The position numbers and the translations under genes are program-made. Positions 24,775 through 27,943 of a stretch of DNA of 36,788 nucleotides are shown here, in pieces (position 1 is the stretch's first letter; the number at the start of each line of letters is the position of its first letter). The stretch is from Candidatus Peribacteria bacterium (GTDB taxonomy: Bacteria; Patescibacteriota; Gracilibacteria; UBA1369; UBA12463), in NCBI GenBank assembly GCA_943355055.1, contig CALREA010000009.1, positions 1 to 36,788 on the forward strand, written 5' to 3'. Below the pieces are notes generated by a model that saw only the letters and a program-made list of their open reading frames with translations, searched no databases and was not told the DNA's origin.

Positions 24775-25512
24775 CTAACTCTTGAGGAGAAGCCAGAGGG
24801 GCTGGAGGGCGAGGAGAGCCAAGACAATAGCGAGATAGATTCGCTTATTAAGTTTTTCGTAGTAGAGAGCCTCTCGAATTTTCTTGAGACGGGTGAGCTT
24901 GTCGGCGATTTCGGTTTGAAGAGACTTGGTGGATTCTGTGAGGAGTAGTATCTCATTTTTATTATCGAGAGTTACGGTTCGGTGCTCCTGGAGGGGAATA
25001 CTGTATTTAATTTGGCTCTCCAGTTGACCTATTCGATAGTGGGCTCCCTCCAACTCGTCCTGACGAGCCTTGAGCTCCGCCGTCAACTGTTCATACATTT
25101 TTTTGTATGTTTCTATGAGTTCGTGGTCACGCGTGTGCGACCGGGGGATAGTGTCGCTGTTATTTTGAGCTTGTGTCTGTCCACGGGTTGACGCTCGAGT
25201 TTCTACAAAAATCGGATCATTATTCGCGCTGTTTTCTTCGTCATTCCCTCCTGGACTGTCGTCACTGTCTACTCTCGTGTCGTTAGACATATTACTATAT
25301 CTATCATGTCTATTGTGTCTTGCTATTTTGCTTCTTTGACTAGCCATGAATTCTATTATTTCGCTTCTGCTCAGCAATATCTTGTTGTCTATTATTTTTG
25401 TCGTTAGCTGTCCAGCATGTCTATATCTATCAAGCGTGCGCATTGATACTTTTAACAGTCTACTTGCTGCTTTTCTATCGATTATATCTTTATTTTCTCC
25501 TATTGTGGACAT
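24775..25512 (-). CDS. Tail-anchored HTH / coiled-coil membrane protein
   Basis: 245 residues with an uncommon three-part layout. Residues about 10-58 are an excisionase/MerR-like HTH (DRKAASRLLKVSMRTLDRYR, HAGQLTTKIIDNKILLSRSE). Residues 60-125 are a polar, Ser/Asn/Asp-rich linker. Residues about 128-222 form a coiled coil (LIETYKKMYEQLTAELKARQ). Residues 224-243 are a single C-terminal membrane helix (RIYLAIVLALLALQPLWLLL). The DNA-binding end would face the cytoplasm, tethered to the membrane. RacA of Bacillus has HTH plus coiled coil, but no membrane helix, and I know of no described protein with this exact order. Ten TGTCTA sites cover its promoter and 5' coding half, suggesting self-regulation or DNA tethering. 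Adjacent to the DUF881 genes and an FG-GAP/SLH gene. Confidence 0.78.
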   Translation of the reverse strand: MSTIGENKDIIDRKAASRLLKVSMRTLDRYRHAGQLTTKIIDNKILLSRSEIIEFMASQRSKIARHNRHDRYSNMSNDTRVDSDDSPGGNDEENSANNDPIFVETRASTRGQTQAQNNSDTIPRSHTRDHELIETYKKMYEQLTAELKARQDELEGAHYRIGQLESQIKYSIPLQEHRTVTLDNKNEILLLTESTKSLQTEIADKLTRLKKIREALYYEKLNKRIYLAIVLALLALQPLWLLLKS

Positions 25513-25627
25513 ATATTTATTGTCTATGAATTGTCTACCCTGTGTGGACGCGCCGGAGAGACATGTTTATGGCTGTCTATCTACGCGTGTCTACTGTCTA
25601 TTATAGGCAGGTATCTGATAATGTCTA
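25266..25627. repeat. Cluster of ten direct TGTCTA repeats
   Basis: Exact TGTCTA on the plus strand begins at 25266, 25307, 25386, 25418, 25521, 25532, 25574, 25588, 25595 and 25622, with one inverted copy (TAGACA) at 25284-25289. Close variants are AGTCTA at 25457 and TGTCCA at 25409. A given hexamer is expected about once in 4 kb per strand, so ten in 362 bp on one strand is far above chance. The sites occupy both the intergenic promoter region and the first third of the HTH gene in different codon phases, so coding constraints do not explain them. Two copies sit on the -10 and -35 boxes of the HTH gene promoter. Confidence 0.75.
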
Positions 25628-25717: not shown

Positions 25718-27943
25718 ATGCTCATCCGTACTACTCGTCATTCACCGCTTCTTGCCGCTGCTATCATTTCCGCTATTGTTGTCTCTCCACTGCCATTTCC
25801 GTCACCTGTTTCGGCTGAATCGAAGCCCTTTTACACCTATAATCTCTCCGCTGCCCCTGATTCTCTTCAGCCCTCCTCTTCTTCCTCTATAGCGAAATAC
25901 GGTTCCGGCTCGCACAACGCGCAATTTGGCGCCGTTCTGGCCAAGGGCGATTTCAATGACGATACCATTGATGATTTGGTTATTACCACCCCGTATTTTT
26001 CCAATAATAAAGGTAAAAATGTTGGCAAAATTGAAGTCTATTTTGGAAAGAAGGATTTTGCCCGTGCATTTGCCGATTCTGCTGCGACGCCGGATCTAAC
26101 CTATGTTGGTGTTACGAGCGGTGGTGAGCTTGGTACATCGTTTGTAAGTGGCGATGTAAACGGTGATGGCATCGATGATCTCCTGATGGGGGCTCCCGGT
26201 GAGCGCAGTGTCTATGTTGTCTATGGTAGACATTCGTTTTCTCCTCTTCCTGAAGCCATCGACCTCTTTCCTCCCCGTGCCGACTGGACACTTCGCGGGC
26301 GCAGTGAGGATGAGCAGTTCGGCTTCGCGTTAGACGCGGCCGATATCAATGGAGACAACATTGCCGATATTATTGTTGCTGCCCCGTTTGCCCCACAAGA
26401 TGGTCTCAAACGAGTAGGAAAGGTACATGTGATTTTCGGAAAGAAAGGTGTTGCCCGTGGTACCATCTATCCCCTTGATGCCGTCCCTTCTGATTTGATT
26501 TTTATTGGCAATGCTCTCGATGATCGATTTGGGATTACGCTCACTCATGGGGATTTTGACGCGGACAAAAAGACGGATTTGGCGATAGGTTCCTATATGG
26601 CTACTAACGGCAAGGCCAAGCAGGCGGGGACGGTCACTGTCATGTTTGGGAAAAAACTGGATATAAAAGGCATGGTGAGAGTGAGCTCCGAAAGTGTGCG
26701 AACCGATGATATAGGTGACACCGACGACAGTGATACTTTTTTTTCTGCGGATCACTCCTTTGATTGGTTTGGGTACTCGCTAACTACCGGAGATTTGAAT
26801 AGCGATGGAGTTGACGATCTCGTTATTGGATCATTTCCCTATCTAAAAAATAAACGTCAGGGTGAGGTATATGTGCTTTGGGGTGAGAAAAACAGTCAAT
26901 TCCAGGACGCCCGCCTTTCGCGCGTGTTTGCGCCGCGCGAGGAGTCACTGATTGGAGGTGCTGTGGCTGTTTCCGATCTGAATCATGATGGGACGCAGGA
27001 TTTGGTTATTGGCGCGCCTACTGGCGCGCCCGGCAGTTCCGCCAAAATCGGCCGAGTCTATGCCCTTAGCATTTTTCCCCGCAATAATCAGGCCTGGAAC
27101 TTCTCCAAAATCCCGGCTGATTTGACTATTCAGGGCAGGAGTACCAATGACTGGTTTGGGAATAGTCTCATTATTGGTGATTTTGATAATGATGGAAATA
27201 GAGATATGGTCGTTGGCGCTCCGAATAGCCGAAATGAGAAGATCGCTTCCGGTGCGGTTGAGTATATCCCAGGGCCGATTTTCCCCCATGGAGACGTTTC
27301 CTATACGGTAGCACCTCCTTCGGAATTTGTCAGAAGAGGCTCATTGATGGTTCAAATCATGAAATCTTTCCATTTTGACCTCAAAAATAAAGACTTCATT
27401 GACTCGTGCATGGCGCAGCTCGAGTTTTGCTTTTATCAATTCTCTTCTCAAACGAGCTTCGCGGGACTTACGCTTTCGCCGGTACTCCAGCTCTATCCTG
27501 ACGTGAAACCGACCGATCCCTATTATGCCGCCGTGACTATCGGTACGATTCTTGGTATCGTGCGCGGCTTTACTGATGAGCCGCAGACCCCGTTCCATCC
27601 ACAACGCTCCATCAGCCGCATACAGGCTCTGAAAATCCTCATGACGGCAACAGGAATACTTCCGTGGAAAGACTACTATGAGTTACAAAAAGAACTTACG
27701 GACGCCGGCAAGACCTCTTCTGGCAAAGACCATATTACTTCACAAAAAACTCCCTACCAGGATATTTCTGCGCGCATTCCTCATATGTGGTGGTATCCGC
27801 GTTACGTCAATTTCGCTTTTCTGAGCGGACTTATCGACGATACCGTGTTTTTCCAACCTGACGCGCCTCTCACGCAAAAAGATCTTGAGATATGGACCGC
27901 GAATATCAAAACCTATCTTGCCCGACATGAAACATCGCCTTAA
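25718..27943 (+). CDS. FG-GAP (integrin-alpha-like) beta-propeller surface protein with SLH-like C-terminus
   Basis: 741 residues from the ATG at 25718, which gives a proper signal peptide (MLIRTTRHSPLLAAAIISAI then VVSPLPFPSPVSA). Seven FG-GAP repeats with calcium-binding loops follow: GDFNDDTIDDLVI, GDVNGDGIDDLLM, ADINGDNIADIIV, GDFDADKKTDLAI, GDLNSDGVDDLVI, SDLNHDGTQDLVI and GDFDNDGNRDMVV. Seven repeats would close a seven-bladed propeller as in integrin alpha chains. The C-terminal 200 residues carry two diverged SLH domains (LYPDVKPTDPYYAAVTIGTI and YQDISARIPHMWWYPRYVNF), which would hold the propeller on the cell wall. Adhesion to other cells is a plausible inference for an episymbiotic lineage. 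It overlaps the next gene by 17 bp. Confidence 0.87.
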   Translation: MLIRTTRHSPLLAAAIISAIVVSPLPFPSPVSAESKPFYTYNLSAAPDSLQPSSSSSIAKYGSGSHNAQFGAVLAKGDFNDDTIDDLVITTPYFSNNKGKNVGKIEVYFGKKDFARAFADSAATPDLTYVGVTSGGELGTSFVSGDVNGDGIDDLLMGAPGERSVYVVYGRHSFSPLPEAIDLFPPRADWTLRGRSEDEQFGFALDAADINGDNIADIIVAAPFAPQDGLKRVGKVHVIFGKKGVARGTIYPLDAVPSDLIFIGNALDDRFGITLTHGDFDADKKTDLAIGSYMATNGKAKQAGTVTVMFGKKLDIKGMVRVSSESVRTDDIGDTDDSDTFFSADHSFDWFGYSLTTGDLNSDGVDDLVIGSFPYLKNKRQGEVYVLWGEKNSQFQDARLSRVFAPREESLIGGAVAVSDLNHDGTQDLVIGAPTGAPGSSAKIGRVYALSIFPRNNQAWNFSKIPADLTIQGRSTNDWFGNSLIIGDFDNDGNRDMVVGAPNSRNEKIASGAVEYIPGPIFPHGDVSYTVAPPSEFVRRGSLMVQIMKSFHFDLKNKDFIDSCMAQLEFCFYQFSSQTSFAGLTLSPVLQLYPDVKPTDPYYAAVTIGTILGIVRGFTDEPQTPFHPQRSISRIQALKILMTATGILPWKDYYELQKELTDAGKTSSGKDHITSQKTPYQDISARIPHMWWYPRYVNFAFLSGLIDDTVFFQPDAPLTQKDLEIWTANIKTYLARHETSP

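Follow-up and report, generated by a model that had tools for sequence, protein, structure and literature searches.

A dense TGTCTA/TAGACA array at the gene of a tail-anchored HTH protein, a candidate DNA-membrane tether in an order of the Patescibacteriota

The array-associated gene and its product

The window, a 36,788-bp stretch of DNA from Candidatus Peribacteria bacterium, is one whole contig (C9) of a 1.14-Mb assembly of 44 contigs. It carries a gene for a protein composed of an HTH domain, a linker, a coiled coil and a C-terminal hydrophobic tail, and copies of TGTCTA (TAGACA on the gene strand) crowd the promoter and the coding sequence of this gene in two blocks (Table 1). The in-gene block had been described, from the sequence alone, as covering the 5' half of the gene; its actual reach is the first third.

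Table 1. Coordinates of the array, its sites and the associated gene in the window
Feature	Position	Strand	Evidence or remark
TGTCTA/TAGACA array	25266-25627		Two blocks: in-gene, 25266-25423; upstream/promoter, 25521-25627
TGTCTA site	25266-25271	+	Unchanged in 3/4 sister species
Inverted TGTCTA site	25284-25289	-	Unchanged in 4/4 sister species
TGTCTA site	25307-25312	+	Unchanged in 4/4 sister species
TGTCTA site	25386-25391	+	Unchanged in 4/4 sister species
Variant site TGTCCA	25409-25414	+	Sequence; variant class enriched in relatives, 45 vs 6.8
TGTCTA site within codons of the recognition-helix region (Y30-R31-H32)	25418-25423	+	4/4 sister species
Gene-strand variant site TGTCCA that overlaps the start codon	25506-25511	-	Sequence and enriched variant class
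TGTCTA site, 9 bp 5' of the ATG	25521-25526	+	Unchanged in 4/4 sister species
TGTCTA site, 11 bp from the preceding site	25532-25537	+	Unchanged in 4/4 sister species
TGTCTA site	25574-25579	+	Unchanged in 3/4 sister species
TGTCTA site	25588-25593	+	Unchanged in 4/4 sister species
TGTCTA site overlapping the -10	25595-25600	+	Variant TGGACA in 4/4 sister species
TGTCTA site doubling as -35 hexamer of the HTH gene	25622-25627	+	Unchanged in 1/4 sister species
Promoter-like site of the HTH gene, TAGACA-16-TATAAT	25600-25627	-	11/12 match
Array-associated protein, 245 aa: MerR/RacA-like HTH, variable linker, coiled coil, hydrophobic tail anchor	24775-25512	-	HTH_17, E=8.6e-7; full-length homologues
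HTH domain, residues 12-60	25333-25479	-	R13, A16, R25, T26, D28 and R29 invariant in 47 homologues
Variable linker, residues 61-129, probably disordered	25126-25332	-	Alignment; DNA bears the in-gene site block
Coiled coil, residues 130-215	24868-25125	-	Conserved consensus YKxLYxE...RLExANYRVGQLExQLKxSVPLLE
C-terminal tail anchor, residues 225-244, IYLAIVLALLALQPLWLLLK, with basic NKR ahead of it	24781-24840	-	Hydropathy; near-invariant QP.W

All family profile matches of the protein are limited to the HTH. Among 47 homologues, HTH_17 matched all 47 and MerR matched 18, and the RacA model (NF009649) gave a weak match in five (best E=1.2e-4) and none for the window protein. DUF536 was absent from the matches of the window protein and from the families listed for the 47 homologues (25 of 28), and the window protein had no ParB_N match. 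At the C-terminus, 54 of 55 homologues have a tail hydropathy of at least 1.6, a value scored as a membrane segment, and the profile of the 47 has the near-invariant QP.W within this hydrophobic segment and basic residues ahead of it. The linker varies in both length and sequence in the same set. No effector domain was seen in the protein sequence, and no periplasmic sensor domain follows the membrane tail. A PDB profile search with the protein returned nothing at E<=0.1, and an AlphaFold2 model from three sequences was poor (pLDDT 55, below 50 in the HTH). In all five cases checked (the window, L019, L020, L035 and L037), the direction of the HTH gene is opposed to that of the G-rich strand, which is presumed to be the leading one.

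The 362 bp of the array hold 11 TGTCTA sites, compared with 0.07 expected on both strands at the background rate of the window outside the cluster (P(>=11) = 4.5e-21). The ten plus-strand copies and the single inverted copy claimed by the sequence-only reading are all in place, and its judgement that their density lies far beyond chance is borne out. Only seven more copies occur in the rest of the 36.8-kb window, three of them grouped at 26209-26232. In the whole 1.14-Mb assembly no second TGTCTA cluster was seen; outside the locus, close same-strand pairs of the site are as rare as those of a control pattern, and inverted pairs are few.

Conservation of the array with its gene

Homologues of the array-associated protein are found in 84 of 89 genomes of the order, and in 61 of the 62 good ones, normally as one full-length copy; across the order the proteins are approximately 30% identical. 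No homologue turned up in the 11 genomes of sister orders within the class; the rest of the phylum gives weak matches that for the most part cover just the HTH, and the phage and plasmid collections contained no relative. One complete-looking genome without the protein (G007) was considered as a case of loss and rejected: the neighbouring DUF881 gene is absent too, so that the locus is probably missing from this assembly.

The array follows the protein. At most homologue loci, clusters of exact sites lie at the same gene, so that the array is retained in place across the order, and the sister orders that lack the protein also lack the array; close site pairs in seven sister-order genomes number 0, 0, 0, 0, 1, 0 and 0. 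When 6-mers were counted without any preset motif, TAGACA ranked first or close to first among the informative ones in about 30 of 55 regions; by family group, TAGACA shows the highest enrichment around the gene start in all but f8, where TCGACA takes its place. In the strong group, TAGACA occurs 285 times against 12.5 expected; once it is masked, TCGACA (64 vs 4.2 expected) and TGGACA (45 vs 6.8) lead. TGTCTA, proposed as the motif from the window, is correct for the exact copies there, but the counts show a degenerate motif, T[A>C>G]GACA, with W-R preferred immediately before it. Similarly, the shared orientation of the sites is a trait of this genus and not of the element, because more distant relatives use both strands. 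Counts of 8-19 sites per genome are frequent, with sites extending some 300 bp into the gene; in families f4, f8, f15 and a few more, the exact sites number just 0-5 or so per genome. Site positions and orientation differ between families, and the density persists.

The cluster is also singular on a genomic scale. In the complete 998-kb genome of a relative (G054), nine sites lie within 354 bp at this gene, the next best 600-bp window holds three, and the array is the sole cluster. It is likewise the top cluster on three further contigs of 245-313 kb from other genera. The array together with its adjacent protein is an ancient element of the order.

The gene neighbourhood is less constant. The convergent DUF881 gene pair downstream is retained in many families, and the divergent upstream gene varies by family, being of FG-GAP/SLH, GH18, YbeY or TrmH-like type (the last named from sequence reading); none of the genes beside the HTH gene, DUF881 included, encodes a motor NTPase. 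The array stays with the HTH gene while the upstream gene changes, which speaks against control of that neighbour as the main role of the array. The same evidence bears on the idea that the sites are bound by some other, unlinked protein and that the HTH protein merely lies nearby. Binding by the adjacent protein is something that we infer, which leaves room for this idea; however, the array and the protein have the same order-wide distribution and are both missing from the sister orders, the array lies inside the HTH gene itself whatever its upstream neighbour, and the HTH residues are invariant, as is the motif. Another binder is improbable on these grounds.

Selection on the DNA and helical phasing of the sites

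Selection acts on the array at synonymous positions. Among five species of the genus, 7 of the 11 sites are identical in all, compared with 3% of the other 6-mers in the same stretch. Moreover, the codons of the invariant RT[LVI]DR spell TAGACA in 14 of 49 genomes, where the codon usage of neighbouring genes predicts 1.4; because the genomes are related, this is to be read as a ratio and not as a P value. The sites fall into two blocks, one running from approximately -230 to the start codon and the other within the stretch that encodes the variable linker; the HTH codons hold fewer, and the linkers of relatives read like a translation of the array, with VD, MS and ID repeats. The locus is a clear case of a putative protein-binding DNA array kept inside coding sequence, in which the requirements of the DNA shape both the linker amino acids and the choice of synonymous codons.

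The spacing of the sites is regular. Same-orientation sites lie 9-13, 20-24, 30-34 and 41-45 bp apart with peaks at 11, 22, 33 and 44 bp; spacings near whole helical turns had already been noticed in the window. The best period is 11.3 bp, with weak power at 3 bp; site pairs share ancestry, and the Rayleigh value should therefore not be taken as a P value, but site positions and orientation vary from family to family. Opposed sites favour the dyads TGTCTAGACA, TGTCTATAGACA and TAGACATGTCTA. The phased spacing and the dyads point to protein units aligned on one face of the DNA, and the helical phasing supports cooperative binding on that face.

A satellite form of the array occurs in G047, in which contig C3 stops inside the array with 20 sites and contig C5 begins with 13, giving at least 33 copies of TAGACA in total. 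The repeat unit of this satellite is 44 bp and contains two TAGACA, one TGTCGACA and one ACTGACA. Assemblies break at satellites, and the break of the G047 assembly within the array is attributed to this one.

A functionless array, arising by chance, from codon usage or by decaying tandem duplication, would agree with the low-complexity linker, where some of the sites are read as V-D or M-S, but not with the P value of the cluster, the sites in non-coding DNA, the tenfold excess of TAGACA-spelling codons, the density that holds while positions vary between families, or the helical phasing. The statistics, the codon test, the density and the phasing already refute this reading, and its probability is negligible.

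Promoter overlap and proposed autoregulation

The sequence-only reading had placed sites at the -35 and -10 of the HTH gene, and this is what is found: the 11/12 promoter lies inside the array, one site serves as the -35 and a second overlaps the -10. Such an arrangement fits autorepression. In relatives, the best promoter matches use a site as the -35 in 17 of 34 cases against 10.8 expected, a count inflated by the resemblance of TAGACA to the -35 hexamer TTGACA; as evidence, this overlap was set aside as weak.

The main rival to the reading proposed below is pure autoregulation, in which the array is an unusually large operator limiting synthesis of the protein and the tail serves sensing or another role. 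The promoter within the array, with one site on the -35 and another at the -10, speaks for it, as does, subject to the inflation just described, the frequent use of a site as the -35 in relatives. However, a normal operator is far smaller than arrays that often hold 8-19 sites, run some 300 bp into the gene and, as a satellite, reach at least 33 sites, and the tail is followed by no periplasmic sensor domain. Pure autoregulation is considered unlikely.

Relation to the replication origin, ParB and SMC

Chromosomal parS sites usually lie at the origin or the terminus of replication. The array lies within uniform GC skew in G020, G023 and G045, with no switch there; in G054, dnaA is located away from the array; and no DnaA-box cluster was found at the array. 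The missing switch of GC skew implies that the locus is not an origin-linked parS. The dense repeats with the dyads TGTCTAGACA and TGTCGACA might still recall a replication origin, a terminus or a classical parS, but against the skew, the position of dnaA and the lack of DnaA boxes this is very improbable. The earlier proposal that the adjacent HTH protein binds the array, for autoregulation or as an anchoring or partition locus, gains support from conservation, uniqueness and phasing, and is weakened as far as partition of the origin type is concerned. Those of its refuting conditions that computation can check all came out in its favour.

The GC skew of G054, which belongs to the Peregrinibacteria order, is negative throughout: over the whole 998,424-bp contig (L047-L096) it is -0.22 to -0.37 per 50-kb block and switches nowhere, while the gene strands are mixed. 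A like case, Microgenomates Ch65, has been interpreted as one-way replication (PMC7143001).

ParB_N was detected in 11 of 59 genomes. An SMC_N search of 14 genomes of the order gave no match of SMC size; the matches were RecF-, ABC- and UvrA-sized, and were assigned to these families from size alone. A literature search on chromosome segregation in CPR bacteria without ParABS and SMC returned nothing for this group. The locus offers a concrete single-gene candidate, with a DNA target, for chromosome segregation in CPR bacteria; it is order-wide and small enough for a laboratory host.

A proposed DNA-membrane tether

The array, its conservation throughout the order, its tie to the gene, its spacing and the architecture of the protein are observed directly in the sequences. 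An HTH, a coiled coil and a membrane tail in one protein, together with a dense phased array, have the anatomy of a DNA-membrane tether. In the reading that we prefer, the locus is an autoregulated, centromere-like array that is covered cooperatively and tethered to the membrane by the protein of its own gene; its probability is put at roughly 0.6. The MerR/RacA-like HTH would bind half-sites T[A/C/G]GACA, the coiled coil would oligomerise the protein along sites spaced by whole helical turns, and the C-terminal tail would hold the resulting nucleoprotein patch at the cytoplasmic membrane. Since the array covers the promoter and the start of its own gene, occupancy would repress that gene, and the amount of tether would then track the number of loci.

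Binding, tethering and segregation are judged here from anatomy and conservation, and the parts of this reading differ in strength. It is very likely that the protein binds the array. Repression of the gene by array occupancy is probable, and tethering of the array to the membrane is probable to a similar degree. As a one-gene, centromere-like tether, the system may assist chromosome placement or separation in this order, where ParB went undetected in most genomes and no protein of SMC size was found; the chance of a role in chromosome segregation or placement is put slightly below even. A bolder version, in which the tail-anchored binder and the array in its own gene and promoter form a new type of chromosomal centromere and the main chromosome-placement system of an order mostly without ParB/SMC, is advanced only tentatively and is rather less likely than that.

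Comparison with known systems

In the available parts of one report (PMC11500499), RocS is described as the main segregation factor of the pneumococcus (Streptococcus pneumoniae), with an HTH resembling those of RacA and pSK1 Par. RocS resembles the array-associated protein in its MerR-type HTH, coiled coil and C-terminal membrane anchor, and it joins chromosome to membrane as a single protein where ParABS and SMC matter little. On the other hand, RocS has an amphipathic helix and DUF536, whereas a hydrophobic tail is present here and DUF536 is not among the families listed; a dense dedicated array lies here in the protein's own gene, and those parts of the report describe none for RocS. According to the same parts, pSK1 Par is a one-gene partition protein with a MerR-type HTH and a coiled coil that binds sequence repeats, but it is plasmid-borne, contains DUF536 and has a C-terminus like an amphipathic helix. 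The array-associated protein, by contrast, is chromosomal and order-wide, and was found on none of the plasmids searched.

RacA, which tethers the Bacillus subtilis chromosome, likewise combines a MerR-type HTH with a coiled coil and binds repeated, centromere-like ram sites (PMC6593407). The ram sites are densest near the origin yet chromosome-wide, and RacA is anchored by DivIVA (PMC6593407), whereas the present system has one compact array that is not placed at the origin, a hydrophobic tail of its own, and proteins of which 5 of 47 show only weak similarity to the RacA model. Among plasmid systems, the direct-repeat centromeres parC (bound by ParR) and tubC (bound by TubR) lie over or beside the promoter of the binder's own operon, sometimes split in blocks, and centromere-binding proteins often double as repressors (PMC5016525). 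The present array is similar in placing phased direct repeats across the promoter of a putative binder's gene, but those systems have a motor (ParM, TubZ or ParA; PMC5016525), and here there is no adjacent motor and the protein has its own membrane tail. The array-associated protein differs from ParABS in having no ParB_N match. The locus combines features of these systems while DUF536, an origin location and a motor are missing, and for this reason it is not assignable to the RacA, RocS or pSK1 Par families.

Site groups outside the locus

The three sites at 26209-26232 of the window (TGTCTATGTTGTCTATGGTAGACA) sit in the FG-GAP gene and are largely retained in two sister species; they may merely be the codons of SVYVVYG. 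In G045, seven sites lie within 390 bp in a 5'-3' exonuclease-like gene (L157, 15781-16169; contig C1, 175781-176169), directly upstream of ftsA- and ftsZ-like genes. This group was rejected as a further array, because the sister genomes retain only a pair of sites and no cluster. G020 (L186, 1506-2675; 154 aa) and G031 (L188, 1391-2161) have a second HTH gene, a short one whose product shows no clear membrane tail, with several TGTCTA upstream in both species. Finally, the genome of the window (G000) has two intergenic elements, L011 650-820 on contig C19 and L012 1440-1580 on contig C26, in which palindromic site groups lie in a similar frame, GGTATAGACA...TGTCTAGACA...ACATACC; they are possibly secondary binding sites or a small repeat family.
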